Shown piece after piece: positions 10,020 to 64,000 of a stretch of 64,000 bases of DNA (positions are counted from its first letter, which is position 1; the number at the start of each line of letters is the position of its first letter). The notes under the pieces were generated by a model. The model did no database searches, was not told the origin of the DNA, and saw nothing but the letters and a program-made list of their open reading frames with translations. Source of the DNA: Stentor roeselii (taxonomy: Eukaryota > Ciliophora > Heterotrichea > Heterotrichida > Stentoridae); assembly GCA_006503475.1 (NCBI GenBank), contig RSEH01000079.1, positions 1 to 64,000 of the forward strand, written 5' to 3'. The position numbers and the translations under genes are program-made.

Positions 10020-13000
10020 TTAATCTTTCCTCATTCTCTTCATAAAATCTTTATTCTTAATCCTATAAACCAAAAGTCTTTGAAACAGCCCAAAGTTAAA
10101 AGCGAGTTTAATCATCTGATAAACAGTTTTCCCTTCCTTAGCAACGAGCAAACTAGGAGGGAGTTTAAGATTTTTCCTAATTCCAAGTCCAAAAATGACT
10201 GACCATCCAATGATATCCACACCAACAATCCAAACACGATTAACTTCAGTACAAACCGCGACAACATACATTAAAGTGTTCCAAACAACACAAAAATACC
10301 CGACTTTAACCCACAAGTTAAGCCGATCAAAGTTATAAGCGTTATTTTTCATTAAAAATACTAAAATTGCAGCCATACCCGTTAAAAAAACAAGAGCGAA
10401 CCAGATCTTTTCCATAATTCCCAAGATAATAAAGACCTTTTCCAGAGTTGTAATCAAAATGCATAAAAAAGTCTTAAGCATGAAGAAAGCCTGACTTGCT
10501 TTGATGTTTTTCGTTAAATTATCCTGTTCTCCTGACTTGTAAAAATAAGACAAAACCGAATGAGTAACAAGTAAAAACATGCAAATAGAGACAAGTATCA
10601 AGTGACTTCTATTCCAGCACTCATAACTGCAATCATTGTCTAAAAACGCACCATGGGACATCTGAGAAAACCTGCAAGAAAAAACTGAAGAAAGATAAGA
10701 AAAAATCGGAATAAACAAGAAGTTGATCACTACCAACTTGATCAGACTCTCTATCTTTAAAAATTTTCCTCTGTGATTTTCTATCAATTTCAGCTTAAGT
10801 CTTGAAACCATCAGAAAGACAAGACTTATTATCAAGCTGACAATGATCAAGCACAACAAGGTCCAGTAGACTTTATCTCTAAATTCAAAAGCTTTCAGCC
10901 AGTTAAAAGAAAAGATATTCAAGTACCTTCCGAAAGTCACACTCACATGCATCATAGACGGACCCAGAGAAATCATCTGAAAAGGTTCGAAAATCACGGC
11001 GATTATTTCAAGGTAGTCATCAGGTTCGATGAACTTGACGGTTGCAAGCATTGGAATAGAAATCAATTTGAATTTTAAAATCCACAACAATGAGATAAGC
11101 GCTGAAATCACTAAAACAGCCAAGTTCAGTAAAGTTTCTTTAAAAATACTTGAGTCGCTTTGAGTTACTTTGTAGTTAAAAAAATCACAGTTCAGGTAAT
11201 AGTCTTTCATGCTCTTCGGGTGGGTCTCGCCCAAAGGCCAAACTGACTTCTCCAGTTTTAAGTAGTTTAAAGACGTTGGAGATGCACGAGCGGATTCTTT
11301 TATTAAAAACTCGCCAGTTGAAGGGTCTTCGAACATGTTGTAGAAACTCACTGAGTTGATCTCTCTGGAAAGAGAGTCCTCGTCAAAGAGAATCATTCCA
11401 GTGACTCCTAAGAACTTTGAAGCTTTTATGGACTTTGTGATCAACTCGTGGTCTTCGTAGTCTTTCCCTGATAATAGCACTAGTTCCACTGCTTTTATTA
11501 TACTCAGCACGGCGTCCATGTAATAGCAAGGCAGCCAAGTCTCGAAATTTGAATTTTCGTATTCTTTTCTTAGCTCTTCTCCGTATTTTCCTGTCCAGAA
11601 TGAACCGTAGAGAAAATGAGAACCATGAAGAAGTTCTTTTCTTTTTTTTATTTTAAGGGAGTCTTGAACTTTTAAAGCGTCTAGTCCTGCTGGGGTGACA
11701 AAAAAATAAGAAAAATCCCCTCTTCTGATTCCATGATCATATAAAGCCTCTAAAAAGTTAAAAGGCGTAGGATGCGACATAGCAAGTACAATAAAATAAC
11801 ATCCAGTTTCAAAAGCATCTTCAAAATTCTCCTTAAACTCCTCCCACATATCACTACTAAAGTTCATAGGAATTTCTCTAAACTGAGGTCTATTAATAAT
11901 ATTCAAGACTTTTTCCTGATCCAAATACAAAAGATGTGAATAAATCATCTTTCCCCAAGCATCATCACTATAAAAAACAATAACATTTAAATTCCCAAAG
12001 ACTTTCAAGATATGAGCTGAATACTGCAAAATCACATCAAGAGTTGAAACAACTCTGAAAAAACTAGAAGGCAAGGTAAAGTTTTTCAATGTTGCCCCCA
12101 TTCCATTAACTACAGGAATTCTGAGTCCTTGTCTCCTGAGGCCTTCAATTGCTAAGACTGACGGGTAGTAAAATGAGGGAATGTGAGCAACACCCAGTTG
12201 ACTTCCGAGAGATGCGAGACATGTGCTGAAGTTTTTGTTTTCTGATGAATTCTTGCAGTTGAAATCGTCGAAAAGTTTAAATTCGAAACCTTTTAAAGGA
12301 TTTTTTGTGTTGATGTAGTTTATCATGAATTTGGTTCCTTGATGGTAAAGTTGGTTCTGACGGGCATCGTATTGACCTGGTAAACTGCAGTTTGTGTCAG
12401 CGGAAATTGTGATCGGGATCGAATTTAGTTTGGTTCTTTTAAACTTGTTACCGAAAAAGGTTATTTCTTCGGATACTGTTACAACTCCATCTAGTATTGA
12501 TCCTACTTTGTGAATTCGATTATTGAAGCGGTTCATTATTGAATATGTGCATGGTTTTTTTACTTTTGCGAACTCATTCATTATCTGAAAACGAGCGATG
12601 TTTTTACCTGATATCTTATTAGTGAACTTCGTAATTGCTAACATTTCTAGTCTACGTTCATTAAATGCAGTGTCTAAATCACTATAGGCTAAACTTAAAC
12701 TTCCATCAGTCTTCATATACAAAAAGCATTCTTCTCCATAAATAATCAAATTCCACTCTTTTTCTAGGTTTAAAACATTAAAACTGTGAACTAAAGCATA
12801 GCAATCTGTCAAATCAGGTAAAACTACAAAGTTTTGCACCCCTTCAGCCTTGAAGAACTTTCCCAAATGGTTAACAATAGTATCCACACTAGCTGAAGGA
12901 TGGTATCCTGAAGAGATAGCATAATTAAATTGATTTTTGATAAAAGAAGCATTTTCAATGTTTTGGTCTGTTGCTGAATAAAAAATTGCAAATTTGTCCA

Positions 13001-13376
13001 TCTTGAGCCACTCTATCAAGCCATTTAAAGATCTTTGATAACACCCTAAGTCCGGCTCTGTGAAAAAACTCCATTTACTATCAGTTCCTTTTCCTACAAT
13101 AATTGCGGGAATTTCAACCATTTCCGCGATAACCATTGTCTGAAGTTGAAGTTCTCTAGAATTAGTCACCAATACGATAAAGTCGAAATCATCAAAGCTT
13201 TCTAAAAATTTTTTCGTTAAAGGAATGTCAAAAATTGTTATTCCCGGCATAAAAACCAGATCTACTCCTGTTTTGTTGATTCCTATAAGCATTTTATGGT
13301 AGCCCATTCGAAGATCATCAGATTTGATGGCTGAAAGTGAGGTTAGAATGGTTAGGAAGACTGATAGCACCCACAT
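10020..13376 (-). CDS. Double Venus-flytrap receptor with polytopic membrane domain (type A, copy 1)
   Basis: A single 1118-codon frame from ATG 13376 to TAA. Residues 1-18 form a signal peptide. Residues about 25-315 look like a shortened periplasmic-binding (Venus flytrap) domain, with DFIVLVTNSRE, then IPAIIVGKG and FFTEPDLGCY. Residues about 320-740 form a second, more typical ANF_receptor-like domain starting ITISADTN and continuing QNQLYHQGTKFMI, IPVVNGMGATLKN and HPTPFNFLEALYD. Many N-glycosylation sequons support an outside location. From about 745 there are roughly eight membrane helices, a cysteine-rich outer loop (CRF...DNDCSYECW) and a conserved inner tail, PPSLLVAKEGKT...QMIKLAF. 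Eight helices and no class C signature argue against a metabotropic glutamate/GABA-B receptor. Ligand and output are unknown. It is closest to the copy at 54659. Confidence 0.8.
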   Translation of the reverse strand: MWVLSVFLTILTSLSAIKSDDLRMGYHKMLIGINKTGVDLVFMPGITIFDIPLTKKFLESFDDFDFIVLVTNSRELQLQTMVIAEMVEIPAIIVGKGTDSKWSFFTEPDLGCYQRSLNGLIEWLKMDKFAIFYSATDQNIENASFIKNQFNYAISSGYHPSASVDTIVNHLGKFFKAEGVQNFVVLPDLTDCYALVHSFNVLNLEKEWNLIIYGEECFLYMKTDGSLSLAYSDLDTAFNERRLEMLAITKFTNKISGKNIARFQIMNEFAKVKKPCTYSIMNRFNNRIHKVGSILDGVVTVSEEITFFGNKFKRTKLNSIPITISADTNCSLPGQYDARQNQLYHQGTKFMINYINTKNPLKGFEFKLFDDFNCKNSSENKNFSTCLASLGSQLGVAHIPSFYYPSVLAIEGLRRQGLRIPVVNGMGATLKNFTLPSSFFRVVSTLDVILQYSAHILKVFGNLNVIVFYSDDAWGKMIYSHLLYLDQEKVLNIINRPQFREIPMNFSSDMWEEFKENFEDAFETGCYFIVLAMSHPTPFNFLEALYDHGIRRGDFSYFFVTPAGLDALKVQDSLKIKKRKELLHGSHFLYGSFWTGKYGEELRKEYENSNFETWLPCYYMDAVLSIIKAVELVLLSGKDYEDHELITKSIKASKFLGVTGMILFDEDSLSREINSVSFYNMFEDPSTGEFLIKESARASPTSLNYLKLEKSVWPLGETHPKSMKDYYLNCDFFNYKVTQSDSSIFKETLLNLAVLVISALISLLWILKFKLISIPMLATVKFIEPDDYLEIIAVIFEPFQMISLGPSMMHVSVTFGRYLNIFSFNWLKAFEFRDKVYWTLLCLIIVSLIISLVFLMVSRLKLKLIENHRGKFLKIESLIKLVVINFLFIPIFSYLSSVFSCRFSQMSHGAFLDNDCSYECWNRSHLILVSICMFLLVTHSVLSYFYKSGEQDNLTKNIKASQAFFMLKTFLCILITTLEKVFIILGIMEKIWFALVFLTGMAAILVFLMKNNAYNFDRLNLWVKVGYFCVVWNTLMYVVAVCTEVNRVWIVGVDIIGWSVIFGLGIRKNLKLPPSLLVAKEGKTVYQMIKLAFNFGLFQRLLVYRIKNKDFMKRMRKD

Positions 13377-24478: not shown

Positions 24479-24557
24479 ACAATTTTAACTAACCCATCAA
24501 CTCTAAAAAACCCTTCCTTAATCCCCAAACAAAACATCAATCAATCCATTTATTCTA

Positions 24558-34468: not shown

Positions 34469-34494
34469 CGACCATCTATGTATTAATTATATCA

Positions 34495-39929: not shown

Positions 39930-39942
39930 TTTTTATAACTGA
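39930..39942 (-). promoter_or_regulatory. 13-bp spacer with TATAAA
   Basis: The whole gap between the coiled-coil gene's stop and the DNAI7 start; minus-strand TATAAA at 39932-39937, 2 nt before the ATG. Confidence 0.4.
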
Positions 39943-41559: not shown

Positions 41560-41690
41560 GAATATTTACTAGTCTAAGAATGAGTAGATGTAGAATAAAT
41601 GATTCAAAATCACCCAAATCACCAAAAATCATTAAACCATTCCTCAACCAAACTCAATCAAAAAACCCCCCCAAAGAAAAAGTCTAAAAA

Positions 41691-42899: not shown

Positions 42900-43024
42900 T
42901 AATTGATAGTTTTTATTAGTTGACTTAGAATATTGAAAAGTTGTTGACTTCAAATAGAAGCGAAGATCCCTCTTTACCTGATAAAGCTTAATTAACTTTC
43001 TAACTATTATCTAAATGAATAAAT

Positions 43025-47619: not shown

Positions 47620-47681
47620 TTGGAAATATGAAGATTTAAGAAGTTTTTTAGAGGAATTAACATTTGATATTAAAATAATAA

Positions 47682-48650
47682 ATGGGATTACTGGTTGACG
47701 GTAAATGGGTAGACGATTCCCACGACACCTCAATTCAATCCGACGGTAAATTTCTAAGACCCGAGACAGAATTCCGTAACTCTCTATCCCGTGACCCTTC
47801 ATCGACTTACCCATGCGAACTCGGTCGTTACCACCTATACATATCCTACGCATGTCCATGGGCGCACCGTACTTTAATAATGCGTAAGTTAAAAAATTTA
47901 GAAGACATAATCACATTATCAATAGTAGACCCATACATGAACGACGACGACGGGTGGAAATTTTCTGACTACCCAGGCGCCGTGCGAGACCCAGTCTTCA
48001 ACGCGGACTTCTTATACCAGATCTATCAACACGCCAACCCCAACATGACCGGGTGGGTCACAGTCCCTGTCTTATTTGACAAGAAGACGAAAACAATAGT
48101 AAACAATGAATCTTCTGAAATAATTTTAATGCTCAACAACTGCTTCGATGGACCTGATTTTTACCCTGAAGACCTTCGGACAAAAATAGAAGAAGTAAAT
48201 GAATGGGTTTATGATAAGATCAATAATGGAGTTTATAAAGCTGGATTCGCTTCTTCTCAAAGTGCTTATCTTGAAGCAGTTAAGGAATTGTTTGAAGGTT
48301 TGGATAGAGTTGAGGAGATTTTGAAGAAGAATAGGTTTTTGACTGGAGAGAGATTTACTATTGCTGATATTAGACTTTTTACTTGTTTGGTTAGGTTTGA
48401 TTCGGTTTATGTCGGGCATTTTAAGTGTAATTTGAAGAGAATTGTGGATTATGAGAATATTTGGGAATATGTTAGAGAAATTTATAATATGCCTGGAGTT
48501 GCTGAGACTGTTAATATGGATCATATTAAAGGACATTATTATAGAAGTCATAAGTGGATTAATCCTAGTGGCGTTGTACCTAAAGGACCTGTTATTGATT
48601 TCAGCTTACCTCATAGTAGAGCTTTAAAATTTAGTAATTTGGAGAATTAG
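47682..48650 (+). CDS. Glutathionyl-hydroquinone reductase (GST xi class, ECM4/YqjG type)
   Basis: A 322-residue frame, ATG 47682 to TAG, the normal family length. The N-terminal extension includes [11 protein letters not shown]; the thioredoxin-like domain has the catalytic [12 protein letters not shown] with Cys58, then [24 protein letters not shown] and NNESSEI; the C-terminal helical domain has [11 protein letters not shown], the [19 protein letters not shown] helix, and [31 protein letters not shown] with the Tyr residues typical of the class. It reduces glutathionyl-hydroquinones to hydroquinone and GSSG. No targeting peptide was seen. Found in bacteria, fungi and plants; its origin here cannot be told by eye. 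The gene is divergent from the coiled-coil gene, 62 bp apart. Confidence 0.92.
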
Positions 48651-48696
48651 GATTTTTTTAAGATATTGATTTTTTAGGTTTTTTTGGAAATTTAGG

Positions 48697-50049: not shown

Positions 50050-50699
50050 TTTTAGATTATTTAGAAAATGGATTATGGGGTTAGAGGGTTTGGGTGAAGA
50101 GAATGGATTTTTTATGGTTTTAGTGAAAATAGTGGTTTTTTTTTTAGATGTGGGAAATTTTAGCGGGTTTTTGGTTGGGTTGATGGAAGGTGTTATTTTA
50201 GAGGATTTTGAAGAGGGTTTTATTAATTTTTAGAGGTTTCGAGTAATTTTTTAATGAAGAATAAAATTTTATGGTTTCTTGATTTTTTATATTATAATTG
50301 ATCCGATAAGTATAAGCTGATAAACAATATATATAAATATTTCTATCTTATTGTTATGATTTAGGATGATGGAATCAAATAGTGGTTTTATTCAAATCTT
50401 TTTTATTGAGTTAAGTAATTATAAGCATTTAGTGTTAAGAGAAAATTTATTTATTGTTAATTTTTCTTATTTCAAGATAATAGTAATCGATAAACTTAAG
50501 TTATATTATTTTAATCTTAAAATCTTAGTTATTTTAGTTATACTTTCCTCATAGATGTTTATACTGAACTTTAACTTGATAGTTGCTCAAGACTTAGTTT
50601 GGTTGACTTATACCAATCTAGCCTATAAAGGTTTACTAATCAGGAAATTAAGACTACCTAGGCCTTTATTTTTGAAGATTATTTACCTACATATTTATC
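50050..50699. other. Intergenic region before the receptor array
   Basis: 650 bp, G/T-rich on the plus strand to about 50,280 and AT-rich beyond. Two short plus-strand frames (50366-50554 and 50555-50770) are hydrophobic by composition but the second runs into the receptor gene's 3' end, so I do not take them as genes. Confidence 0.5.
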
Positions 50700-53600
50700 T
50701 TATTTATACTTCAAAAAGTCTTTATTCTTCCTTCTATATACTCGAAGTCTTTCTAACACCCCAAAACTAAAAGCCAGCTTAATCATTTGATGAATCGTTT
50801 TTCCTTCTTTAATAACAAGTAAACTTGGAGGCATCTTCACAGTCCTTCTAATTCCAATTCCTATTAAAATCACCCAACCAACAACATCAAGTAAAATAAC
50901 CCAAACATCAGAAATCTCTGAAAAAACAGCTAAAATATACATCAAAGTATTCCAAATAACACAAAGATACACAAACTTTATCCAAAGATTTAATCTATCA
51001 AAGTTGTATCCGTTCTTCTTACTTAAAAACAAAAAAATAATCATCATACAACCAAAAAAAATAAAACCAAAGATGAACTTTTGTTCAACTTCAAGAATAA
51101 TTAAAACTTTTTCTATTGTTTTAATCAGAACACAAATGAAAGTTTTTAACATAAAAAATCCTTGATTTGATTTGATGTTTTTTGTTAGACTTTCTTGTTG
51201 TTTTGATTTATTTAAATAAGAAAGAATTGATTGAGTAACAAGAAGTAAGAAAATGACGGTGACTATCAAAATGTGACTTTTTTGCCAGCACTTAAAATGA
51301 CAGTCGTTGTCTAGAAAAGCAGAGTTTGAGTCTTCTGAGTATCTGCATGAAAAAATTGAAGAAAGGTAAGAAAAGGTTGGAATGAATAAATAGTTAAAGA
51401 GCAATAATTCAAGAAAACTTTGAAATTTTTGAATGTTTTTTCTGAACTTTTCTGTTTTCGTTTTAAGAAACTTAAGCAGAGTGAGAGTGGTAAAAGAGAG
51501 GATCATGAATACAAAGATTAGGTAGAGCATAATCCAATAAGTTTTATCTCTGAACTCGAAAGCTTGAAACACATTTAATGAAGCAATATTCAGAAACCTT
51601 CCAAACTTAATATTTACATCCATCATAGAGGGCCCTAGTGAAATCATTTGAAAAGGTTCAAAAAACACTGCAATTATTTCAAGATAATCATCTGTTTCTA
51701 TAAATCTTATCGATGTTAAAGTTTCAATTGAAATAACTTCATATTTGCAAATGTAAATTAATGCGAATAGTCCTGAAATAATTAAAACCGCGAAACTAAG
51801 AAATGTTTCTATCATGATACTTTGTTTGTTTAGAGATACTTTGTATTTGAAGTACTCACAGTTAAGGTAAAAAGCTTTCATACTATTTGGTTTGTCTTCG
51901 CCTAATGGCCAGATAGATTTTTCTATTTTTAAAAAGTTTGATGAAAACGGAGAAGCTTTTGCACTTTCTTTAATTACAAACTTACCTGAAACAGGATCTT
52001 CAAACATATTATAAAGACTAATTGAATTGATTTCTCGAAACAGCGATTCTTGATCAAACATAACTGTTCCAGTAACTCCTTCAAACTTCACACTTTTCAT
52101 ACTCTTTGCTAGCAAATCATAATCTTCATAATTTTTTCCTTGAATCAAAACAAGTTTAACACCTTCTACAATACTCAAAACAGCAGCCATATAAAAACAA
52201 GGAAACCACGTCTTAAATTCCGTTTTTTCATATTCTTTTCTCACATTTTCTCCAAACTCACCTTTCCAAAACGAACTATAAAAAAAGTGCGAACCATGTA
52301 AGAGTTCTTTTCTTTTCTTCAACTGACTCTCCTCTACTAAAAGTGCATCAAGGCCTGTTGGAGTTACGAAAAAATAAGAAAAATCACCTCTTCGAATACC
52401 GAAGTCGTATAAAGCTTCTAAAAAGTAAAAAGGAGTCGGATGTGACATTGCGAAAATCATAAAATAACACCCTGTGTCTATTGCATTTTTTATGTTTCTG
52501 GTGAAGTTTGATAACATTGAAGGGCGGAAGCCCAGTGGAATCATTCTGAGCGATGGATCATTAACAATTTTTAGAAATTTTAAATTCTTCAGTGAAATAA
52601 GATAGGAATAAATCATTATGCCAAAAGGGTCATCAGAATAAAAACAGATGATGTTTAGAGGTCCCATGAATTTTAAGATCCTTAAAGTGTAGAAAATGAT
52701 AGTGTCCAGTGATGTCACTAATCTGAAATAGTTTGAAGGTACTTGAAAATTTTTTAAAGTGCTTCCCATTCCATTTATGACAGGAATTCCTACATTTGAG
52801 TTTCTTAGAAGAGTAATAGTTGATACTGATTCATAATAAAATGAAGGAATATAAGCAATTCCAAGTTTAGCTGCAGACTCAATGATGGATTGATTAGAGG
52901 TATTGTTAATTAAAATGAATTTTTTAGAGTCAAAATCATCATAAAGCAGCAAATCGAAATTCTTTAATATCCTGTTATTATAATTTATATAATCAATCAT
53001 AAATTTCGTACCTTGATGATATAATTGATTTTGATTTACATCATATAACTGATTAAGTATCATTTTCGTGTTAGCAGAAATACTTATTGGAGTTTTCTTA
53101 GTTTTCATTCTACTATAAGAGTTTTCAAAATATGTAATATTCTTCAAAACTGATACAATTCCATCATCAATAGTTCCGATCTGAACATTCATCGAGTTTT
53201 GAAAATTCATTAACGAATAAGAACAAGGGTTCTCAACCTTTTTGAATTCCTTTGCTATCTGAAATCGGTCTAATGTTTTTCCAGCAATAGGATATACATA
53301 TTTCAAAACTGAGTAAAAGTCGTAATCAGAAAATGATTTTGATTGATTTAAATCTTTATAAGCCAAGCCCAAACTTCCATTTACTTTCATATATAAAAAA
53401 CATCGGTCTCCATACAAAATTAAATTCCAGTTTTTTTCTAAGTTCAGTATATTCAAACTTTTGGAAATAACGTCGCAGTCATTATCCCTAGAAAGTATTA
53501 AAAACTCAAAGAATCCTTCACTTTTGTATATTTTTCCTAAGTGCTCTTGAGTTTTTTTAAGGTCTGCGGGTATTGCGAATCCTGAACTAAAGGATGAAGG

Positions 53601-54038
53601 AAACTCAGACTTAATAAATGTTGTTGTTTGAATATTTTCGATTGAAGCTGAATACAAAATTGCAAATTTTTCAAGCTTGAGCCAGTTTATAAGGCTTTTT
53701 AAGGTTTTATGGTAGCATGCGATATCAGGCTCCGTAAAAAAAATCCATTCGGTATTATTTCCCTTGCCGATGATTATCGTAGGAATTTGAGCGAACTCAG
53801 CTAGGATCATTGTTTTGTATTGGATTTCAGGTGAATCTGTATTCAATATAATAAAGTCTACCGTCTTGAAGTTGGACCAATATTCATCTTCAAATACAAA
53901 CGTGGAAATCGACACCCCTGGAAGCGGAATCAAATCAAAAAATAAGGGACTTCTACTCTCAAGAGAAAAGAAGTATCCTGCTTCAAGTGAGTGACTTTTC
54001 AACAGCAAAAAGGAAATAATAATCTCAAAAAAGGGCAT
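50700..54038 (-). CDS. Double Venus-flytrap receptor (type B, copy 1)
   Basis: One 1112-codon frame, ATG 54038 to TAA. Signal peptide 1-17. The N-terminal flytrap-like domain covers about 30-310 (FETVDF-like VDFIILNTDSPE, IPTIIIGKGN, FFTEPDIACYHKT); the second starts about 320 (ISISANTK, QNQLYHQGTKFMIDYINYNN) and runs to about 735; about eight helices follow. The conserved tail is PPSLLVIKEGKT...QMIKLAFSFG. Compared with type A it differs in FDLLLYDDFD and in TVMFDQES. Its last two thirds are almost the same as in the copy at 59084, and from 51096 to 52184 exactly the same. Role unknown; probably a surface chemoreceptor. Confidence 0.8.
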   Translation of the reverse strand: MPFFEIIISFLLLKSHSLEAGYFFSLESRSPLFFDLIPLPGVSISTFVFEDEYWSNFKTVDFIILNTDSPEIQYKTMILAEFAQIPTIIIGKGNNTEWIFFTEPDIACYHKTLKSLINWLKLEKFAILYSASIENIQTTTFIKSEFPSSFSSGFAIPADLKKTQEHLGKIYKSEGFFEFLILSRDNDCDVISKSLNILNLEKNWNLILYGDRCFLYMKVNGSLGLAYKDLNQSKSFSDYDFYSVLKYVYPIAGKTLDRFQIAKEFKKVENPCSYSLMNFQNSMNVQIGTIDDGIVSVLKNITYFENSYSRMKTKKTPISISANTKMILNQLYDVNQNQLYHQGTKFMIDYINYNNRILKNFDLLLYDDFDSKKFILINNTSNQSIIESAAKLGIAYIPSFYYESVSTITLLRNSNVGIPVINGMGSTLKNFQVPSNYFRLVTSLDTIIFYTLRILKFMGPLNIICFYSDDPFGIMIYSYLISLKNLKFLKIVNDPSLRMIPLGFRPSMLSNFTRNIKNAIDTGCYFMIFAMSHPTPFYFLEALYDFGIRRGDFSYFFVTPTGLDALLVEESQLKKRKELLHGSHFFYSSFWKGEFGENVRKEYEKTEFKTWFPCFYMAAVLSIVEGVKLVLIQGKNYEDYDLLAKSMKSVKFEGVTGTVMFDQESLFREINSISLYNMFEDPVSGKFVIKESAKASPFSSNFLKIEKSIWPLGEDKPNSMKAFYLNCEYFKYKVSLNKQSIMIETFLSFAVLIISGLFALIYICKYEVISIETLTSIRFIETDDYLEIIAVFFEPFQMISLGPSMMDVNIKFGRFLNIASLNVFQAFEFRDKTYWIMLYLIFVFMILSFTTLTLLKFLKTKTEKFRKNIQKFQSFLELLLFNYLFIPTFSYLSSIFSCRYSEDSNSAFLDNDCHFKCWQKSHILIVTVIFLLLVTQSILSYLNKSKQQESLTKNIKSNQGFFMLKTFICVLIKTIEKVLIILEVEQKFIFGFIFFGCMMIIFLFLSKKNGYNFDRLNLWIKFVYLCVIWNTLMYILAVFSEISDVWVILLDVVGWVILIGIGIRRTVKMPPSLLVIKEGKTIHQMIKLAFSFGVLERLRVYRRKNKDFLKYK
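51096..52184 (-). repeat. 1,089-bp block identical to 59483-60571
   Basis: I compared the two blocks line by line at an offset of 8,387 and found no difference. Differences resume at 51095 and 52185 and become frequent towards the 5' end of each gene. Confidence 0.9.
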
Positions 54039-54658
54039 TATTATAATTACTGCTAATGTTTAACTGAATGATATTAAGACCTTTTTAAGCAATTTTTTTA
54101 ATTTTTTTAGAGATTTTCTTGTATGTTGATATTTTATTTGAAGAAAGAAAGATATTTGAAAATTCATTTTTTTTGAAGAATTTATCTTAAAATTTCTTTT
54201 CAATCAAGTTTAAGTGGACTAAAAAGTAATGAAAAATTAGAAATCTTAGTAAAATCATTAAAACCGAAAAATTTTTCAAGTTTAGGATATTATCAAAGAA
54301 TTATTATATGCAAATTAGTTGGTTCTAGACGATTGTAAGTAAGAAAAATAGATTAGGTTAGATTATTATTATAAATTTTATACTATTTCTTTATAAATTT
54401 TAAATATTAAGGTAGGTTGTGCTGTTTCAAACATAAATTTTCGTTTTAGTTTGTTGATCATATTGAAATATATATTTGGTATATTTTTGCTTAGTAGTCA
54501 CCAGCATTCTTTCAATAAAAATAAAATTTTGAAAGAAAACCTTTTTTCTAATATTTAAGGCTCTCAATAATACTTAATTGATGAAATTTACCGATTATCT
54601 ACTGAATTTAAAGTTCTAATATAAATCATTAAAAACCTGAATTCAATTCCAAAAAACT
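54039..54658. other. Intergenic region in receptor array
   Basis: 620 bp of AT-rich DNA between two minus-strand receptors. Nothing else recognised. Confidence 0.5.
54040..54045 (-). promoter_or_regulatory. TATAAT-like box, 1 nt before ATG
   Basis: Minus-strand TATAAT touching the start of type B copy 1. The same box and spacing occur before type B copy 2. Confidence 0.45.
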
Positions 54659-57600
54659 TTACTTCTTCCTTTTTTTCATAAAATCCTTATTTTTGACCCT
54701 ATAAATTTGAAATCTTTCCAAAACTCCAAAGTTAAAAGCCAACTTAATCATCTGATAAACTGTTTTCCCTTCCTTCGCAACAAGAAAACTCGGAGGTAAT
54801 TTAAAAGTTTTCCTAATTCCAATGCCAATAATAACTGCCCAGCCAATGAAATCTAAAATAACAACCCAAACATGATGAATACTCGTTAAAACAGCGAGAA
54901 GGTACATTAAAGTATTCCAAATAACACAAAAATATCCAACCTTGACCCACAAATTGAGCCTATCGAAGTTATAAGCGTTTTTTATCATTAAAAATGATAA
55001 GATTACTGCCATACATGCTAAAAACAACAGAGCAAAGCAGAATTTTTCTGTGATTTCTGTGAAAATAAAGACTTTTTCTAGGGTTTTTATTAAAATGCAT
55101 AGAAAGGTTTTTAACATGAAGAAGGCTTGGCTTGATTTGATGTTTTTTGTTAGATTGTCTTGCTCTCCTGACTTGTGGAAATAAGAAAGGGTTGAATGTA
55201 GGATGAGAAGAATCATTGAAATTATTACGATAATTATATGAGTACTTTTCCAACATGAATATCTGCAGTCACTATCTAAAAAAGCACCACCAGATTTTTC
55301 CGAGAACCTACATGAAAATACTGACGAAAGGTAATTAAAAACAGGAATAAATAAAAAGTTAATCACAACAACTTTCACAAAACCTTCAACTTTTAAAAGT
55401 TTTTCCCAATGTTTTTCCAATAACTTCAACTTAAGTCTGGAAATAATTAAAATAAAAAGACCTATAAACATACTGACAATAATAACACAAAGGAATACCC
55501 AATAAGTCTTATCTCTGAACTCAAAAGCTTTTAACCAGTTAAATGAAAAAAAATTTAAATATCTTCCAAACGTCAAATTAACGTCCATCATGGAAGGACC
55601 TAAAGAAATCATTTGAAAAGGTTCTAAAGTCACTGCGATTATTTCAAGGTAATCATCTGGTTCAAAGAACTTAACTGAAGATAACATTGGAATAGAAATC
55701 AGTTTATATTTAAATATGAAAATCAGTGATATCAGTCCAGAGATCAACAAAACTGCAAGGTTTAAAAAGGTTTCTTTTAAAATACTAGAACTGTTCAGAA
55801 CTACTCTATAGTAAAAAAAATCACAGTTAAGGTAAAAAGTTTTCAAGCTTTTTGGATGAGTCTCACCTAAAGGCCATATTGATTTTTCTATTTTTAAGTA
55901 GTTCAGAGCTGTTGGAGACACTCGAGCAGATTCTTTTATTACAAATTTACCAGTTGAGGAGTCTTCGAACATATTGTAAAAACTTATTGAATTTATTTCT
56001 CTTGAAAGAGAGTTTTCATCGAATATTATCATTCCGGTGACTCCTATTATCTTTGATCCTTTTATTGCCTTGGTTATCAAGTCGTGGTTTTCGTAGTCTT
56101 TGCCAGAGAGTAGGACTAATTCTGTAGCTTTTACGATGATTAGAACAGCATCCATGTAGTAGCAAGGGAACCAAGTTTTATAGTCGGAATTTTCGTATTC
56201 TTTTTTTAGTTCTTCTCCATATTTACCTGTCCAGAAAGAATTATAGAGAAAATGAGAACCATGAAGAAGTTCTTTTCTTTTTTTCATTTGTTCTGAGTCG
56301 ATTGATTGAAAGGCATCAAGACCTGTAGGGGTCATAAAAAAATAAGAAAAATCACCTCTTCTTATTCCATAATCATAAAAACCCTCTAAAAAAATAAAAG
56401 GAGTAGGATGCGACATAGCAAAAACAACGAAATACCCTCCACTTTCATAAGCATCTTGAATATTTTCCTTAAACCTTTCCATCATAGACCTCTTAAAATC
56501 AACAGGAATTTCTCTAAATTCCTTACCATTGATAATCCTTAAAACATTCTGATTCTCCAAATCCAAAAGATGTGAATAAATCATTTTCCCCCAAACATCA
56601 TTACTAAAAAACACAATAATCTCCAATTTTCCAAAAATCTTCAAAATTTTCACTGAATACTGCAAAATTACATCAAGAGTAGAGACGACTCGAAAATAAT
56701 TTGATGGTAAATTCGAATTTTTCAATGTTGCACCCATTCCATTAACAACTGGGATATTGTTTCCGAGAGTTCTTAGTCCTTGAATGACTGGAACTGAAAG
56801 GTAATAATATGAGGGAATGTAAGCAACTCCTAAGTTATCTGATTGAGAATCAAGACAATCACTGAAATTTTTACTTTCGAAGGTGGATTTGCAGTTAAAT
56901 TCATCAAAAAGTTGAAATTTGAAACCTTTTAATGGAATTTTAGAGTTTAGGTGAGTTATCATGAATTTCGTGCCTTGATGATAGAGTTGGTTTTGCTTTT
57001 TGTCATGGGTTTGACTTGCTGTTGTTTTAGTGTCTGCTGATATTGTGATGGGAATTGAGTTTACTTTAGTTCTTGAGGTCTTATTACCAAAGTAAGTGAT
57101 ATTGGTGAATACTGTGACTTCACCCTCAAAAATTGATCCTACCACAATTGTTTCATCGTTAACATGATTCATTATAGAGTAATTACATGAGTTTTGGACT
57201 TTTGCAAAATCATTTCTTATCTGATAATGACTTTTCTTTTCACCTAGTATAATAGATAAATTGTCTGTAAACTGTTTTATTGCAAAATATTGTTTTTGTG
57301 ATTCATCATATACGAAATCAAGGGCATTATATACAAGACTTAAACTCCCAGGAGTCTTTAGATGTAAAAAGCATTCATCTCCAAAAACCACCAAATTCCA
57401 CTCTTTTTCTAATTTCAATTCTTTAAAACTCTCAATTACACTCTTACAATCCAAAATATCAGCCAAAACTAAAAAATCTTTAATCCCTTCAACCTTAAAA
57501 AACTTTCCCAAATGCTCCTGAATCTCGAATTCAAAAGAAGCAGGAAGAAATCCAGAAGAAATTGAATTCTGGAATTCACCTTTAATAAAAGAAGCAATTT

Positions 57601-58003
57601 CAATATTATCATTATTAACAGAATAAAAAATTCCCAACTTTTCCATACCCAGCCACTTCAAAAAACCATTCAAACATTTTTTATAACAATCCAAGTCCGG
57701 CTCAGTGAAAAATGCCCATTTTGTATTCCGTCCTTTTCCCAAAATGATTGCAGGAATTTCAAGAAGTTCTGAAATAATTATTATCTTAACTTGCAGTTCA
57801 GGAGAGTTTGTATTCGCGATGATAAAATCGAATTCTTCAAAGTTTTGTAAAAATTCTGAAGCATCGAGAATTGAAGTTATTGTTGCTGGATTTGCAGAGA
57901 TCATATCAGGGTCATGGAGGAATCTTTTGAGGTGTTCTGTTTTTGAAGAGTATGTTTTGGTTAGTATAAGAAATGAAGTGATCAGGAGATATTTTGAAAG
58001 CAT
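54659..58003 (-). CDS. Double Venus-flytrap receptor (type A, copy 2)
   Basis: One 1114-codon frame, ATG 58003 to TAA. Signal peptide 1-20. The N-terminal domain carries FDFIIANTNSPE, IPAIILGKGR and FFTEPDLDCYKK; the second begins ITISADTKTT and includes GFKFQLFDEFNCKST and IPVVNGMGATLKN. The membrane part matches the copy at 10020 closely (IPML.SVKF.EPDDYLEIIAV, FGRYLN.FSFNWLKAF), so the nearest relative lies 40 kb away and not next door. It is set between two type B genes. No TATAAT box touches this start. Confidence 0.8.
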   Translation of the reverse strand: MLSKYLLITSFLILTKTYSSKTEHLKRFLHDPDMISANPATITSILDASEFLQNFEEFDFIIANTNSPELQVKIIIISELLEIPAIILGKGRNTKWAFFTEPDLDCYKKCLNGFLKWLGMEKLGIFYSVNNDNIEIASFIKGEFQNSISSGFLPASFEFEIQEHLGKFFKVEGIKDFLVLADILDCKSVIESFKELKLEKEWNLVVFGDECFLHLKTPGSLSLVYNALDFVYDESQKQYFAIKQFTDNLSIILGEKKSHYQIRNDFAKVQNSCNYSIMNHVNDETIVVGSIFEGEVTVFTNITYFGNKTSRTKVNSIPITISADTKTTASQTHDKKQNQLYHQGTKFMITHLNSKIPLKGFKFQLFDEFNCKSTFESKNFSDCLDSQSDNLGVAYIPSYYYLSVPVIQGLRTLGNNIPVVNGMGATLKNSNLPSNYFRVVSTLDVILQYSVKILKIFGKLEIIVFFSNDVWGKMIYSHLLDLENQNVLRIINGKEFREIPVDFKRSMMERFKENIQDAYESGGYFVVFAMSHPTPFIFLEGFYDYGIRRGDFSYFFMTPTGLDAFQSIDSEQMKKRKELLHGSHFLYNSFWTGKYGEELKKEYENSDYKTWFPCYYMDAVLIIVKATELVLLSGKDYENHDLITKAIKGSKIIGVTGMIIFDENSLSREINSISFYNMFEDSSTGKFVIKESARVSPTALNYLKIEKSIWPLGETHPKSLKTFYLNCDFFYYRVVLNSSSILKETFLNLAVLLISGLISLIFIFKYKLISIPMLSSVKFFEPDDYLEIIAVTLEPFQMISLGPSMMDVNLTFGRYLNFFSFNWLKAFEFRDKTYWVFLCVIIVSMFIGLFILIISRLKLKLLEKHWEKLLKVEGFVKVVVINFLFIPVFNYLSSVFSCRFSEKSGGAFLDSDCRYSCWKSTHIIIVIISMILLILHSTLSYFHKSGEQDNLTKNIKSSQAFFMLKTFLCILIKTLEKVFIFTEITEKFCFALLFLACMAVILSFLMIKNAYNFDRLNLWVKVGYFCVIWNTLMYLLAVLTSIHHVWVVILDFIGWAVIIGIGIRKTFKLPPSFLVAKEGKTVYQMIKLAFNFGVLERFQIYRVKNKDFMKKRKK

Positions 58004-59083
58004 CGGGATATGGTTATTTATTATGGATTATTTAAGTATAAGGAAGAGATGCTTAAAGCTATTGATATTAAATTATTTGTAACTACCAGAATTTAGGTCA
58101 AATTTTATATGAAATATTTGGCGGGAACTAATGTGAAGCTATTATCATAATGATAAAAAAATTACTAAATTAAAAACTATTCTATCTAAAAAATTAATAA
58201 TTTTGAGTAGTGCTCTCAACTTCGATTAATTTAGAAGGTAATCTTATTTAATATTTATTTAGTTCAAGTCATTGTGAAAATATGGTTTCTTTAAGATTAA
58301 GATATGAATTTCTTGAATTCTTAAGGTTTTTTTGAATACCATTTCCTTGACATAACTATAAATTTTAAATTTTTACAAACAATCAAGATTCCTTGTATTT
58401 TATCTGAAATTAACTCAAGTGTTTATTTATAAGAATCGATTCAAATTAGTTTATTATTATATTTACTCAAAATGAAAACAAATTTGATCAATATGCATTT
58501 ATTTCGAAATACATGTTATATCTTATATAATAATTTACATGTATAAGTTATTGAATTTACAAATCAAGCAAGAATAAAAGGAACAGATATGAGTAATGAA
58601 AACAATAAAATTAAAAGAAAAAATAAAAATCATATTTTTAAGGATATTCTAACTATCTGTAAAATTATTTGATATTTGAAGGTATTTAAGATTTAATTTT
58701 TTTGTTGTTGTTGTCACTCATTAGATATTTATCATGATTGATAAGGAAAATAGATTTATTTATTATTTATTTGAAGGATATGTGAAATAATTTGATCAAA
58801 GTATGATTGCTCATATATTTATAAAGTATCTCAATTGAAATTTACTTTAGAAATTCAAAATGTTATTATTTCAAGATTCATATAAATATTAAACTCTAAA
58901 TATTCATAGATCCTCTTAAAGAAAGATAATAACCTTGATTCTGATGCAGAAAATGTTTAATTGCACTTTAAATAGAGAAAATTATAAATGACAGAATGTT
59001 TTACGACATATAATTAAATTCAAGTTTATATTTATATCCAATAAAGAACTTAAATCAATTGAAAATAACTAAATATTAACTAC
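58004..59083. other. Intergenic region in receptor array
   Basis: 1.08 kb of very AT-rich DNA (runs of A and T to 10 bp). No open frame or relic recognised. Confidence 0.5.
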
Positions 59084-62000
59084 TTACTTTTTAAATCTCA
59101 AAAAATCTTTATTCTTCTTTCTATATACTTGAAGTCTTTCTAACACCCCAAAACTAAAAGCCAGCTTAATCATTTGATGAATCGTTTTTCCTTCTTTAAT
59201 AACAAGTAAACTTGGAGGCATCTTCACAGTCCTTCTAATTCCAATTCCTATTAAAATCACCCAACCTACAACATCAAGTAAAATAACCCAAACATCTGAA
59301 ATCTCTGAAAAAACAGCTAAAATATACATCAAAGTATTCCAAATAACACAAAGATACACAAACTTTATCCAAAGATTTAATCTATCAAAGTTGTATCCGT
59401 TCTTCTTACTTAAAAACAAAAAAATAATCATCATACAACCTAAAAAAATAAAACCAAAGATAAACTTTTGTTCAACTTCAACAATAATTAAAACTTTTTC
59501 TATTGTTTTAATCAGAACACAAATGAAAGTTTTTAACATAAAAAATCCTTGATTTGATTTGATGTTTTTTGTTAGACTTTCTTGTTGTTTTGATTTATTT
59601 AAATAAGAAAGAATTGATTGAGTAACAAGAAGTAAGAAAATGACGGTGACTATCAAAATGTGACTTTTTTGCCAGCACTTAAAATGACAGTCGTTGTCTA
59701 GAAAAGCAGAGTTTGAGTCTTCTGAGTATCTGCATGAAAAAATTGAAGAAAGGTAAGAAAAGGTTGGAATGAATAAATAGTTAAAGAGCAATAATTCAAG
59801 AAAACTTTGAAATTTTTGAATGTTTTTTCTGAACTTTTCTGTTTTCGTTTTAAGAAACTTAAGCAGAGTGAGAGTGGTAAAAGAGAGGATCATGAATACA
59901 AAGATTAGGTAGAGCATAATCCAATAAGTTTTATCTCTGAACTCGAAAGCTTGAAACACATTTAATGAAGCAATATTCAGAAACCTTCCAAACTTAATAT
60001 TTACATCCATCATAGAGGGCCCTAGTGAAATCATTTGAAAAGGTTCAAAAAACACTGCAATTATTTCAAGATAATCATCTGTTTCTATAAATCTTATCGA
60101 TGTTAAAGTTTCAATTGAAATAACTTCATATTTGCAAATGTAAATTAATGCGAATAGTCCTGAAATAATTAAAACCGCGAAACTAAGAAATGTTTCTATC
60201 ATGATACTTTGTTTGTTTAGAGATACTTTGTATTTGAAGTACTCACAGTTAAGGTAAAAAGCTTTCATACTATTTGGTTTGTCTTCGCCTAATGGCCAGA
60301 TAGATTTTTCTATTTTTAAAAAGTTTGATGAAAACGGAGAAGCTTTTGCACTTTCTTTAATTACAAACTTACCTGAAACAGGATCTTCAAACATATTATA
60401 AAGACTAATTGAATTGATTTCTCGAAACAGCGATTCTTGATCAAACATAACTGTTCCAGTAACTCCTTCAAACTTCACACTTTTCATACTCTTTGCTAGC
60501 AAATCATAATCTTCATAATTTTTTCCTTGAATCAAAACAAGTTTAACACCTTCTACAATACTCAAAACAGCATCCATATAAAAGCAAGGTAACCACGTCG
60601 TAAATTCCGTTTTTTCATATTCTTTTCTCACATTTTCTCCAAACTCACCTTTCCAAAACGAACTATAAAAAAAGTGCGAACCATGTAAGAGTTCTTTTCT
60701 TTTCTTCAACTGATTCTCCTCTACTAAAAGTGCATCAAGGCCTGTTGGAGTTACGAAAAAATAAGAAAAATCACCTCTTCGAATACCAAAGTCGTATAAA
60801 GCTTCTAAAAAGTAAAAAGGAGTCGGATGTGACATTGCGAAAAGCATAAAATAACACCCTGTGTCTATTGCATTTTTTATGTTTTTGGTGAAGTTTGATA
60901 ACATTGAAGGGCGGAAACCCAGTGGAATCATTCTGAATGATTCATCATTAACAATTTTTAGAAATTTTAAATGCTGCAGTGAAATAAGGTAAGAATAAAT
61001 CATTATACCAAAAGGGTCATCTGAATAAAAACAGATGATGTTTAGAGGTCCCATGAATTTTAAGATCCTTAAAGTGTAAAAAATGATAGTATCCAGTGAT
61101 GTCACTAATCTGAAATAGTTTGAAGGTACATTAAAATTTTTTAAAGTGCTTCCCATTCCATTTATGACGGGAATTCCTACATTCGAGTCTCTTAGAAGAG
61201 TAATAGTTGATATTGATTCATAATAAAATGAAGGAATATAAGCAATTCCAAGTTTAGCTGCAGATTCAATGATGCATTGATTAGAAGTATTGAACATGAA
61301 AATAATTTGGCAATCAAAATCATCATAAAGTAGCAAATCAAAATTTTTTAATATTCTGTTATTATAATTTATATAATCAATCATAAATTTCGTGCCTTGA
61401 TGATACAGTTGATTTTGATTTACTTCATATAACTCGTTTAGTATCAATTTCGTGTTAGCAGAAATAGTGATTGGAGTTTTCTTGATTTTCAATCTATCAT
61501 AAGAGTTTTCAAAATATATAATATTCTTGAAAACTGATACAATCCCTTCATCAACAGTTCCAATCTTAACATTCATCGAGTTTTGAAAATTCATTAAAGA
61601 GTAAACACAAAATTTCTGAACCTTTTTGAATTCCTTTCTTATCTGAAATCGATCTAATGCTTTTCCAGATATAGCATTTATGTATTTCAAAGTTGATAAA
61701 AAATCATATTGAGCTAATGAAATCGCGTGATCAATATCTTGATATGCTAAACCCAAACTTCCATTTATCTTCATATAAAAAAAACATCGATCTCCATACA
61801 GGATTAAATTCCAGTTTTTTTCTAGGTTTAGCAGATTCAAACCTTTGGAAATAACGCTGCAGTCATAATTACTAGATAGAATTAAAAACTCAAAGAATCC
61901 TTCACTTTTGTATATTTTTCCTAAGTGTTCTTGAGTTTTTTGAAGGTCTGCAGGTATTGCAAATCCTGAACTAAAGGATAAAGGAAACTCAGACTTAATG

Positions 62001-62422
62001 AAAGTTGTTGTCTTAATATTCTCAACTGAAGCTGAATACAAAATTCCAAATTTTTCAAGTTTCAACCACTTTATCAAGCTTATTAAGGTTTTATGGTAAC
62101 ATGAGATATCAGGCTCTGTAAAGAAATTCCATTCTGTATTATTTCCCTTGCCGATGATTATTGTAGGAATTTGTGCAAATTCAGCTAGGATCATCGTTTT
62201 ATATTTAATTTCAGCTGAATCTGTATTCAAAATAATAAAGTCTACCGTCTCGAAGTTGGACCAGTAGTCACTTTCAAATATAAAGCTGGCAATTGATAGC
62301 CCTGGAAACTGGATAAAATCATGTACAAAAGGATTCCTGCCTTCAATAGACATGAAGTATCCTGCTCTAAGTGATTCACATTTCAACATAAGTAAGAAAA
62401 CAATAATCTTAAAGAAGGCCAT
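59084..62422 (-). CDS. Double Venus-flytrap receptor (type B, copy 2)
   Basis: One 1112-codon frame, ATG 62422 to TAA. Signal peptide 1-18. Same domain order as type B copy 1. The first ~330 residues differ from that copy at many sites, mostly in the N-terminal flytrap-like domain, while the second flytrap and all membrane helices are nearly the same. Notable changes are KLILNELYEVNQ for KMILNQLYDVNQ and a single-codon length difference near CQIIFMFNTSN. This pattern suggests a variable sensing head on a constant signalling body. Confidence 0.8.
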   Translation of the reverse strand: MAFFKIIVFLLMLKCESLRAGYFMSIEGRNPFVHDFIQFPGLSIASFIFESDYWSNFETVDFIILNTDSAEIKYKTMILAEFAQIPTIIIGKGNNTEWNFFTEPDISCYHKTLISLIKWLKLEKFGILYSASVENIKTTTFIKSEFPLSFSSGFAIPADLQKTQEHLGKIYKSEGFFEFLILSSNYDCSVISKGLNLLNLEKNWNLILYGDRCFFYMKINGSLGLAYQDIDHAISLAQYDFLSTLKYINAISGKALDRFQIRKEFKKVQKFCVYSLMNFQNSMNVKIGTVDEGIVSVFKNIIYFENSYDRLKIKKTPITISANTKLILNELYEVNQNQLYHQGTKFMIDYINYNNRILKNFDLLLYDDFDCQIIFMFNTSNQCIIESAAKLGIAYIPSFYYESISTITLLRDSNVGIPVINGMGSTLKNFNVPSNYFRLVTSLDTIIFYTLRILKFMGPLNIICFYSDDPFGIMIYSYLISLQHLKFLKIVNDESFRMIPLGFRPSMLSNFTKNIKNAIDTGCYFMLFAMSHPTPFYFLEALYDFGIRRGDFSYFFVTPTGLDALLVEENQLKKRKELLHGSHFFYSSFWKGEFGENVRKEYEKTEFTTWLPCFYMDAVLSIVEGVKLVLIQGKNYEDYDLLAKSMKSVKFEGVTGTVMFDQESLFREINSISLYNMFEDPVSGKFVIKESAKASPFSSNFLKIEKSIWPLGEDKPNSMKAFYLNCEYFKYKVSLNKQSIMIETFLSFAVLIISGLFALIYICKYEVISIETLTSIRFIETDDYLEIIAVFFEPFQMISLGPSMMDVNIKFGRFLNIASLNVFQAFEFRDKTYWIMLYLIFVFMILSFTTLTLLKFLKTKTEKFRKNIQKFQSFLELLLFNYLFIPTFSYLSSIFSCRYSEDSNSAFLDNDCHFKCWQKSHILIVTVIFLLLVTQSILSYLNKSKQQESLTKNIKSNQGFFMLKTFICVLIKTIEKVLIIVEVEQKFIFGFIFLGCMMIIFLFLSKKNGYNFDRLNLWIKFVYLCVIWNTLMYILAVFSEISDVWVILLDVVGWVILIGIGIRRTVKMPPSLLVIKEGKTIHQMIKLAFSFGVLERLQVYRKKNKDFLRFKK
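59483..60571 (-). repeat. Partner of the 1,089-bp identical block
   Basis: Identical to 51096-52184; covers the second half of the second flytrap domain to the fifth membrane helix. Confidence 0.9.
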
Positions 62423-63486
62423 AATTATATTTGTGATAATTATTCTATAAAGTTGATGCGAAGGCTTTTAACAAATATTAAATTATCTTCTTGAAAACAA
62501 GTTGGCCATATGGAAGTAGTATTGAGAACGAAATATATGCTCACAATAAGAGCCTGTTTAATAAATTTAAAAATTAAACATTCAACGAGAAGTCACACTG
62601 CATAAGTGTTTGAAGCAAAACAAGCATCAATTAATACAAGTTGACTTTATCATAGTTAATAACTTTCCATTCATAATAAATCAAATTAAGCTAAAAGCCT
62701 AAATTCAAAGAAAAGACATAATTTCTAAAACTTCTGTAATTACATAATTTTCTTAGATTTGAAAAATCACAGAGAAAGATTTCAACGTAAATTTTGATAT
62801 TCTTTAATGATTATTGATGTACTGAATAAAAAGACAAGCATAAAATTGGTGCAGAATCTGTTAAAGATATAAGTTTCATGCGATATTCAGCAGGACTAAT
62901 CAGTTGCATAGAGCGAAAAATTCTCCGATTTGACAGAATGCCTCAGTGAAATTAAAAAAGTTAATATATTTTAGTAAATAATTAGTAAAGCTGAACCTAA
63001 TTCGGTATTCTTGCAATAACACTTTACCAAAGATTCTAATCTATCCCTAGATTATTATCATAATCATCCTACAATTTTAGGCTCTAAAAATTTTAAAAGT
63101 AATGATATCAACAAAATCATACCATGTTATGCAAATATACTGATTGTTATAAAAATTTCCTGTCAAGTACTTAAGAAAGTATCAAAGCTTTTACTGAGTT
63201 AGCTCTTAAGACACCTCAAAAAGGTAAAAAACATTCAGATTGTTGCCTTTACAAAAACCTCAATCGGAAAATTGAAAAATCTGTTTACTATATGTTATAA
63301 ATTTTCACCTGTTTTAATCTGTATTAAAACAATAGTTTTCTATATCGAAGAAAAGTTCTTCATTGAATTAGTTTATATAAAATCGTTAAATATCTAAGAT
63401 TATTAAATTTCCTATATCTAACTGCTCTAAATACTTATTCTGATTATTACAATATTCCTAACCTCAATTAAATTACTGAATAAAAA
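62423..63486. other. Intergenic region in receptor array
   Basis: 1.06 kb of AT-rich DNA. On the plus strand between about 62,830 and 63,400 there are short coding-like runs broken by stops (for example LKKVKNIQIVAFTKTS), perhaps a relic, but no family can be named. Confidence 0.4.
62424..62429 (-). promoter_or_regulatory. TATAAT-like box, 1 nt before ATG
   Basis: Minus-strand TATAAT next to the type B copy 2 start. Confidence 0.45.
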
Positions 63487-64000
63487 TCAATGAAAGCTCT
63501 TCTTTTTAAAATAATTTCTCCCTTTAATTCGATACACCCTAAGTCTTTCCATCAACCCAAATCGAAAGGCCAACTTGATCATCTGATGAACAGTTTTCCC
63601 TTCCTTCACAACAAGTAAGCTCGGGGGAAGCATCAAAGCACATCGAACTCCAAGAGTCAAAATGACAGCCCATCCAAAAAAATCAACAAAAATGACCCAA
63701 ACATACCAAAGTTCAGTAGTCACAGCGACAACATAAATTAAAGTATTCCAAGCAACACAAAAGTAAAAAACTTTTACCCATAAGTTGAGTCTATCATAGT
63801 TAAAAGCTGAAAACTTGAACAAAAAAGACAAAATCACAATGACTACTGAAAAAAATACTAAAGCAAAGATAAATTTTTGATTTACTTGAGAAATTATCAA
63901 GATTTTCTCGATAATTACTATGAAAACTAGGAGAAAAGACTTAAGCATAAAGAAGGCTTGACTTGATTTGATGTTTTTTGTAAGAGATTCTTGTTGTCTT
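63487..64000 (-). CDS. Double Venus-flytrap receptor (third type), C-terminal part, cut by window edge
   Basis: The minus-strand frame is open from the right edge (RQQESLTKNIKSSQAFFMLK) to a TGA at 63487-63489. It holds the last four membrane helices and the conserved tail (MLPPSLLVVKEGKTVHQMIKLAFRFG, LMERLRVYR in part). It differs from types A and B in the tail (RCALMLPPS, RIKGRNYFKKKSFH) and in the helix region (NQKFIFALVFFSVVIVILSF in part), so it is a third lineage of the family. The N-terminal ~950 residues lie beyond the window. Confidence 0.8.
   Translation of the reverse strand, partial: RQQESLTKNIKSSQAFFMLKSFLLVFIVIIEKILIISQVNQKFIFALVFFSVVIVILSFLFKFSAFNYDRLNLWVKVFYFCVAWNTLIYVVAVTTELWYVWVIFVDFFGWAVILTLGVRCALMLPPSLLVVKEGKTVHQMIKLAFRFGLMERLRVYRIKGRNYFKKKSFH

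Follow-up and report, generated by a model that had tools for sequence, protein, structure and literature searches.

Predicted double Venus-flytrap receptors with a nine-helix membrane module form an expanded family in the ciliate Stentor roeselii

Introduction

Class C G protein-coupled receptors (GPCRs; mGlu, CaSR, GABA-B and T1R) carry one type-I Venus flytrap over a polytopic membrane domain of seven helices, with the N-terminus outside the cell and the C-terminus inside. Natriuretic peptide receptors consist of one flytrap, one helix, and kinase-like and cyclase domains. Ionotropic glutamate receptors have an amino-terminal flytrap, a type-II ligand-binding domain and a P-loop channel. 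Most trypanosomatid receptor-type adenylate cyclases have two outer flytraps, one helix and a cytosolic cyclase, as stated in the available excerpt of PMC6027212. Here we analyse a stretch of 64,000 nucleotides from Stentor roeselii (the window; bases 1-64000 of the 167-kb contig C504, GenBank RSEH01000079.1), in which a group of minus-strand genes encodes putative receptors with two flytraps and nine membrane helices.

Ciliates have a rich chemosensory behaviour. A genome-wide GPCR survey found no family C receptors in its ciliates, as far as its available excerpt goes (PMC9960496), and ciliates were also searched with 7tm_3 in PMC12716839, according to an excerpt of that work. The genome that we searched comprises 44.4 Mb in 522 contigs.

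Results

The window genes share a double-flytrap ectodomain

An initial annotation of the window had described five members of a receptor family, all on the minus strand, and the positions given for them (10020, 50700, 54659, 59084 and 63487) are indeed the stop ends of five open frames (Table 1). The coding parts run over 10023-13376, 50703-54038, 54662-58003 and 59087-62422, with 63490-64000 for the fifth, incomplete copy. The four complete genes, P0001 to P0004, are read with the standard code, are intronless and have no internal stops. Their products, of about 1,115 residues, follow one plan: after a signal-peptide-like start come two type-I Venus flytraps in tandem, then a polytopic membrane module and a short tail. 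The other three proteins are 54, 66 and 53% identical to P0004. Frames of more than 1,100 codons at 24-32% GC, alignable as 25 proteins, are not chance. For the proposed signal peptide, a simple rule on hydropathy was applied in place of a trained predictor; it recovered an N-terminal hydrophobic stretch in all 26 of the family proteins extracted.

Two outer flytraps had also been proposed, and on this point profiles, an intermediate relative and a structural model agree. Flytrap 1 spans approximately residues 20-322 and flytrap 2 residues 322-735. With Pfam, three of the four complete proteins of the window showed an ANF_receptor match in their second half (best E 8e-6; none for P0002), at 25.5 bits for P0004 against a cut-off of 25.4, and 22.4 and 19.6 bits, both under the cut-off, for P0003 and P0001. 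The best match of P0004 in the PDB, as a single sequence, was the flytrap of NPR-A (E 7.5e-4). When used as a profile of 25 members, flytrap 2, which keeps 14 invariant positions across these members, matched mGlu3 (E 2e-10) and, more weakly, T1R and GABA-B. The flytrap 1 profile matched part of a kainate-receptor flytrap (E 1.4e-5, profile positions 27-135), and this domain alone matched ANF_receptor in 11 of the 25 members, P0004 not being among them. In the relative L040 (1241 residues), Pfam found two ANF stretches in one frame, the first half of the protein matching GluN1 (E 3e-6) and the second half plant GLR3.4 (E 3e-11).

A full-length AlphaFold model built from the 25 sequences (predicted local distance difference test score, pLDDT, 82.5; predicted template-modelling score, pTM, 0.64) contained two successive flytrap-type alpha/beta domains and not one. 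Foldseek placed class C receptors at the top of the matches to this whole model (E 1e-14), with root-mean-square deviations (rmsd) of 16-31 Å for full-length receptor chains. Comparison of the flytrap 1 and flytrap 2 profiles with each other gave only a weak signal (probability 5.5%, E 0.007); in view of this weak internal homology, we base the claim of two flytraps on the external matches and the model.

The membrane module has nine helices

Beyond residue 650, plain hydropathy gave each protein 6-9 segments. The model contains nine long helices, at residues 741-768, 785-804, 834-857, 869-899 (in two pieces), 923-948, 962-985, 987-1010, 1017-1043 and 1047-1070. The mean net charges of the eight loops, computed over 25 proteins, were +2.2, -0.3, +2.8, -1.8, +1.7, -0.4, +1.2 and -0.3, and that of the tail was +2.0. 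Since the charge is positive in the tail and in the four inner loops and negative in the four outer ones, the tail was placed inside. The alternation is that expected of nine helices between external flytraps and an internal tail, some of the outer-loop values being small. Thus, the "about eight helices" of the initial annotation should be replaced by nine on the basis of the AlphaFold models and the loop charges.

Modelled alone, from an alignment of 45 rows (44 distinct, L036 and L049 being the same gene; the P0003 module was left out), the module reached a pLDDT of 88.2 and a pTM of 0.84. Helix 2 carries conserved polar residues: D60 and Q73 (module numbering) are invariant in the 45 rows, and E70 is present in at least 90% of 20 rows. 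Another conserved set lies in an outer loop (C174, D188, C189, C193 and H198), and a YNY.R.N-like motif precedes helix 8, with N288 in at least 90%. The tail is approximately 45 residues long and contains no enzyme domain. The KEGKT...QMIKLAF pattern, initially described as a conserved inner tail, recurs with one or two changes in each of the five window copies; it is not conserved in the wider family alignment and marks the window subfamily alone.

The module matches no known receptor or channel domain consistently

The module was placed in no known class C GPCR or channel family by Pfam, by a PDB profile search or by Foldseek. Foldseek comparison with 350,542 PDB chains returned 39 matches at E <= 10, none of them at 0.001 (best E 0.61) and no GPCR among the 39. 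At E <= 0.01, Pfam matched no membrane family to more than one of the 45 modules; three weak single-member matches fell in three families, one being 7TMR-DISM_7TM. At E <= 10, 7tm_3 was not in the best 25 of 38 families. Lig_chan gave a weak match in two of the 45 modules (best E 0.076) and none in the whole window proteins, and a Pfam scan of the latter showed no cyclase domain. The earlier view that neither class C GPCRs nor receptor guanylyl cyclases fit these proteins is borne out by the two flytraps, the nine helices and the missing GPCR matches in the first case, and by the nine helices and missing cyclase domain in the second.

At E <= 10, the only PDB sequences touched by the 45-row module profile were T1R3 chains (E 1.1 and 1.7), with module helices 7-9 aligned on what we take to be T1R3 helices 5-7. 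An hhalign comparison with class C seven-transmembrane (7TM) sequences scored 20.8, and 2 of 100 block shuffles scored higher. Genome-wide, 7tm_3 gave one match, below cut-off, to a 415-residue protein without a flytrap match (L038, contig C446), which was rejected as a relative of the module (0.3% in single-sequence hhalign).

Among viral structures (BFVD), one of 32 Foldseek matches was significant: A0A5J6VI06, an uncharacterised protein from a Megaviridae environmental sample, resembles the module in its predicted fold (E 9.3e-6, probability 1.00, TM-score 0.66 on the target, rmsd 5.6) but differs in having 284 residues, too few for two flytraps, and 14% identity. Searches for sequence relatives of the receptor family in viral contigs and prokaryote genomes found none. 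Within Stentor, L041 and L042 have a C-terminus homologous to module helices 4-9, at an hhalign probability of 98.3% (E 2e-14) as against 0.1-0.2% for reversed controls. Together with L063, L064 and L065, which are connected to the receptor family only via L041, these form a second ciliate family of approximately 1,240-1,550 residues with a related C-terminal module. They differ from the receptors in having about 16-19 further hydrophobic segments, a long soluble region in front and no flytraps seen; the two tested gave no significant Pfam match.

The family is large and clustered

A genome search with the L040 membrane module gave 86 rows, which reduce to at least 77 loci after merging the second pieces C214:38330 and C216:9050 and setting aside seven L041-type rows (C20, C62, C64, three in C71, and C494); the counts are lower bounds. 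Sixty-three loci are intact (frame of at least 1,000 residues), and 14 are short, broken or at contig edges. With a spacing of at most 12 kb, strand ignored, 32 of the loci fall into 12 clusters. The window array is a small corner of this family. Searches with P0004 and ANF_receptor gave 42 and 82 matches, respectively. In the module tree, three window modules and L012 form a clade of four with full support.

Several interrupted copies stand beside intact ones. The copy at the window edge, L013 (C504:63502-66714), has a single in-frame TAA, located beyond the window; L014 and L024 (C478) have several stops, and L023 (C214) a TGA and a TAA. These four interrupted or partial loci were dropped from the 30 fetched with P0004 before alignment, and L032, a near copy of L026, was left out of one alignment (A2).

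Divergence is unevenly distributed along the proteins. P0001 and P0003 are 78% identical in flytrap 1, 94% in flytrap 2 and 99% in the module, and their synonymous divergence (dS) falls in parallel from 0.40 to 0.11 and 0.014. Selection on the protein does not readily cause such a dS gradient; the 3' half of the two genes has therefore probably undergone conversion or a recent exchange, and this would have homogenised the module while leaving the ectodomain different. L026 and L032 show a milder gradient (dS 0.068, 0.012 and 0.023 for flytrap 1, flytrap 2 and module). Flytrap 1 had the lowest amino-acid identity of the three domains in eight of nine compared pairs, the exception being L026/L030, in which the module was lowest. 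The ratio of nonsynonymous to synonymous divergence (dN/dS) stayed under 1 for every domain of the nine pairs in which dS was computable.

Signalling proteins, genetic code and contig ends

A genome search for G-alpha (PF00503), ignoring introns, in the one assembly gave 19 matches, none over the cut-off. Seventeen lie in frames of at most 246 residues. The longer two are on C507 (647 residues, not inspected) and at C74:72500-74500 (L066, 463 residues), the latter by inspection a GIMAP/AIG-like GTPase with a weak match to the G-alpha profile. Guanylate_cyc (PF00211) gave 77 matches, most of them in frames of approximately 2,000 residues; thus, signalling proteins can be found in the assembly. 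Many of these frames have two Guanylate_cyc matches each, indicating a large expansion of paired cyclases.

Translation first used the ciliate code 6, which was dropped for the standard code after counts in 31 genes. Under the latter code, their stops are TAA (17), TAG (12) and TGA (2), and their 35,918 codons contain 413 TGG and no TGA, a biased count since the frames are cut at TGA. B. stoltei reads UGA as Trp, according to an excerpt of PMC9942806. The same excerpt gives Blepharisma introns as 15-16 nt. Requiring at least 100 open codons per side, the window has just two intron candidates in the 12-30 nt range, one of 15 nt and one of 14 nt; the 15-nt candidate was the sole survivor of the strictest join test and agrees with Blepharisma-type introns. 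Many lengths appear at 60 open codons, and evidence for tiny introns in the window is thin.

Three exact repeats of CCCTAACA occur 220 times forward and 327 times in reverse genome-wide, as against 0 for the reversed-pattern control. Among the places listed, the runs lie a few bases from contig starts or at single high coordinates (at the end of C5, up to 153,582 of 153,588). The Blepharisma telomere repeat is identical to CCCTAACA (excerpt of PMC9942806). Taken together, repeat and code suggest a heterotrich that uses the standard code, and make B. stoltei, with its UGA for Trp, unlikely.

Other genes of the window

The neighbours between 24540 and 50391 are ordinary: ten frames were scanned with Pfam, and three had no match. 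At 14325-18545 on the minus strand lies a gene for a 1407-residue cysteine-rich protein with a Laminin_G_3 domain and a multi-helix C-terminus of its own; membership of the receptor module in this LamG/cysteine-rich membrane family was rejected (hhalign 0.2%).

Table 1. Receptor genes, their predicted domains and Pfam-matched neighbours in the window
Feature	Position	Strand	Basis or remark
Receptor gene P0004, 1118 aa, complete	10020..13376	-	outlying member of window subfamily
P0004 flytrap 1	12405..13325	-	alpha/beta fold in AlphaFold model and family profile; no Pfam match alone
P0004 flytrap 2 (ANF_receptor)	11214..12404	-	Pfam, PDB sequence match, model, family profile
P0004 nine-helix membrane module	10080..11195	-	AlphaFold model, loop charges, Foldseek
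Receptor gene P0001, 1112 aa, complete	50700..54038	-	open frame
P0001 flytrap 1	53079-53999	-	
P0001 flytrap 2	51885-53078	-	
P0001 membrane module	50751-51866	-	
Receptor gene P0002, 1114 aa, complete	54659..58003	-	open frame
P0002 flytrap 1	57041-57943	-	
P0002 flytrap 2	55850-57040	-	
P0002 membrane module	54716-55831	-	
Receptor gene P0003, 1112 aa, complete	59084..62422	-	sister of P0001, membrane module near-identical
P0003 flytrap 1	61463-62383	-	
P0003 flytrap 2	60272-61462	-	
P0003 membrane module	59138-60253	-	
Fifth copy (L013), 3' end only in window	63487..64000	-	continues past window edge
DEAD-box helicase	24540-26348		Pfam
cNMP-binding protein	33122-34651		Pfam
TPR protein	34495-37281		Pfam
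Casc1-like protein	37854-39971		Pfam
PHD protein	41562-42920		Pfam
GST	47493-48848		Pfam
Protein kinase	48604-50391		Pfam

Discussion

We are confident that these genes encode proteins of receptor architecture, and their sequences make a chemosensory role probable. For the family as a whole, our best reading, evenly poised between true and false, is an expanded, locally duplicating family of heterotrich cell-surface chemoreceptors with a ligand-gated conductance. One or both flytraps would close on a small ligand, and closure would be relayed via a short linker to the nine-helix module. The module would be the effector, either a ligand-gated ion conductance itself or a subunit gating one, and the output could be chemosensory control of swimming or contraction. 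The module is proposed as its own effector because the tail has only about 45 residues and no enzyme and because no G-alpha was detected; ion conductance as its output is a tentative assignment that, from the sequences, falls just short of an even chance. This reading is favoured by the double flytrap, the nine helices, the number of loci, the divergent flytrap 1, the polar helix 2 and the homologous module in polytopic proteins devoid of flytraps. Several points weigh against it. Function is inferred here from sequence and predicted structure, the two models draw on alignments of 25 and 45 sequences from a single genome, and the module has no resemblance to a known channel by sequence (Pfam) or by fold (Foldseek against the PDB). 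The polar helix residues would equally fit a non-conducting receptor, and homogenised modules with divergent ectodomains could likewise belong to recognition or adhesion proteins. A 2001 title in the reference list of PMC9960496, part of which was available, refers to putative G proteins of Stentor. Given this literature, the single assembly and the intron-blind search, the missing G-alpha is not proof.

Other explanations account for part of these data. The module could signal via a partner, for instance one of the many large cyclases of the genome, making the proteins metabotropic receptors other than GPCRs. The 77 Guanylate_cyc matches, mostly in the long frames, and the short tail, with its pattern conserved in the window subfamily, agree with this; the tail motif is, however, not family-wide, and no physical or genomic link to a cyclase turned up, no test for one having been made, which leaves the idea rather unlikely. 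We regard it as improbable that the proteins are highly diverged class C GPCRs, in which module helices 3-9 would be the class C seven helices, supplemented by two more helices and another flytrap. Helices 3-9 would have a suitable orientation, T1R3 chains were the only PDB sequences that the module profile touched, and class C receptors came first in the whole-protein Foldseek search. That rank can nevertheless stem from the flytraps alone, as the rmsd over full-length chains indicates; moreover, the module alone drew no GPCR, 7tm_3 stayed outside the best 25 families, block shuffles could beat the hhalign score, and no G-alpha was detected. A remote class C origin remains a weak, unproven lead.

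Surface recognition or adhesion, for example in self/non-self discrimination or mating, without small-molecule transduction, would account for the gene clusters, the divergent flytrap 1, the broken copies and the conversion-like homogenisation. Against this stand the 14 invariant positions of flytrap 2, the matches of L040 to flytraps of ligand-binding receptors and the dN/dS values below 1, and we consider it highly improbable. Least credible of all is an uptake system with a nine-helix transporter supplied with substrate by the flytraps: the latter have the fold of periplasmic binding proteins, several insignificant Foldseek matches of the module are transporters, and the module is also present in large polytopic proteins, but no transporter fold match was significant (best E 0.61), and two fused flytraps in dozens of divergent copies better suit sensing.

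In its broad sense, a Venus-flytrap receptor is a membrane domain joined to an extracellular type-I flytrap, and the Stentor proteins are predicted to have both. No description of a double-flytrap nine-helix family was found among the literature matches listed, and on two or tandem Venus flytrap domains the only ones were EvgS papers. The initial annotation called the family undescribed; the listed matches and the ciliate GPCR survey, in its excerpt (PMC9960496), agree with this for the literature, whereas sequence databases may hold unnamed entries. The coupling of a two-flytrap ectodomain to a nine-helix module appears new within the literature searched, two flytraps themselves being known from trypanosome cyclases. 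It is possible, if doubtful, that the module is an unrecognised eukaryotic membrane fold acting as a ligand-gated channel or transducer, with a related fold in giant viruses, and that its fusion to a double flytrap provides the main chemoreceptors of heterotrichs, in the role of animal class C GPCRs and glutamate-gated channels. If the family does serve as the heterotrich flytrap chemoreceptors, this would explain where flytrap sensing went in that lineage. Since the genes are intact, intronless and in the standard code, they can be directly expressed and the question is readily testable.

The closest described systems share elements with the Stentor family. Class C GPCRs have the same overall arrangement and orientation, with one flytrap and seven helices in place of two and nine. 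Trypanosomatid receptor-type adenylate cyclases share the two outer flytraps and differ by their single helix and cytosolic cyclase, as opposed to nine helices and no enzyme (PMC6027212, excerpt). The natriuretic peptide receptor NPR-A provides, with its flytrap, the best single-sequence PDB match of P0004. Ionotropic glutamate receptors are approached by flytrap 1, through the kainate amino-terminal flytrap, and by L040, through GluN1 and GLR3.4; their type-II ligand-binding domain and P-loop channel were not found here by Pfam. If our reading holds, the nine-helix module would be an additional membrane transducer beside the known partners of flytraps, namely the 7TM domain, the ionotropic glutamate receptor pore and the single helix with an enzyme.

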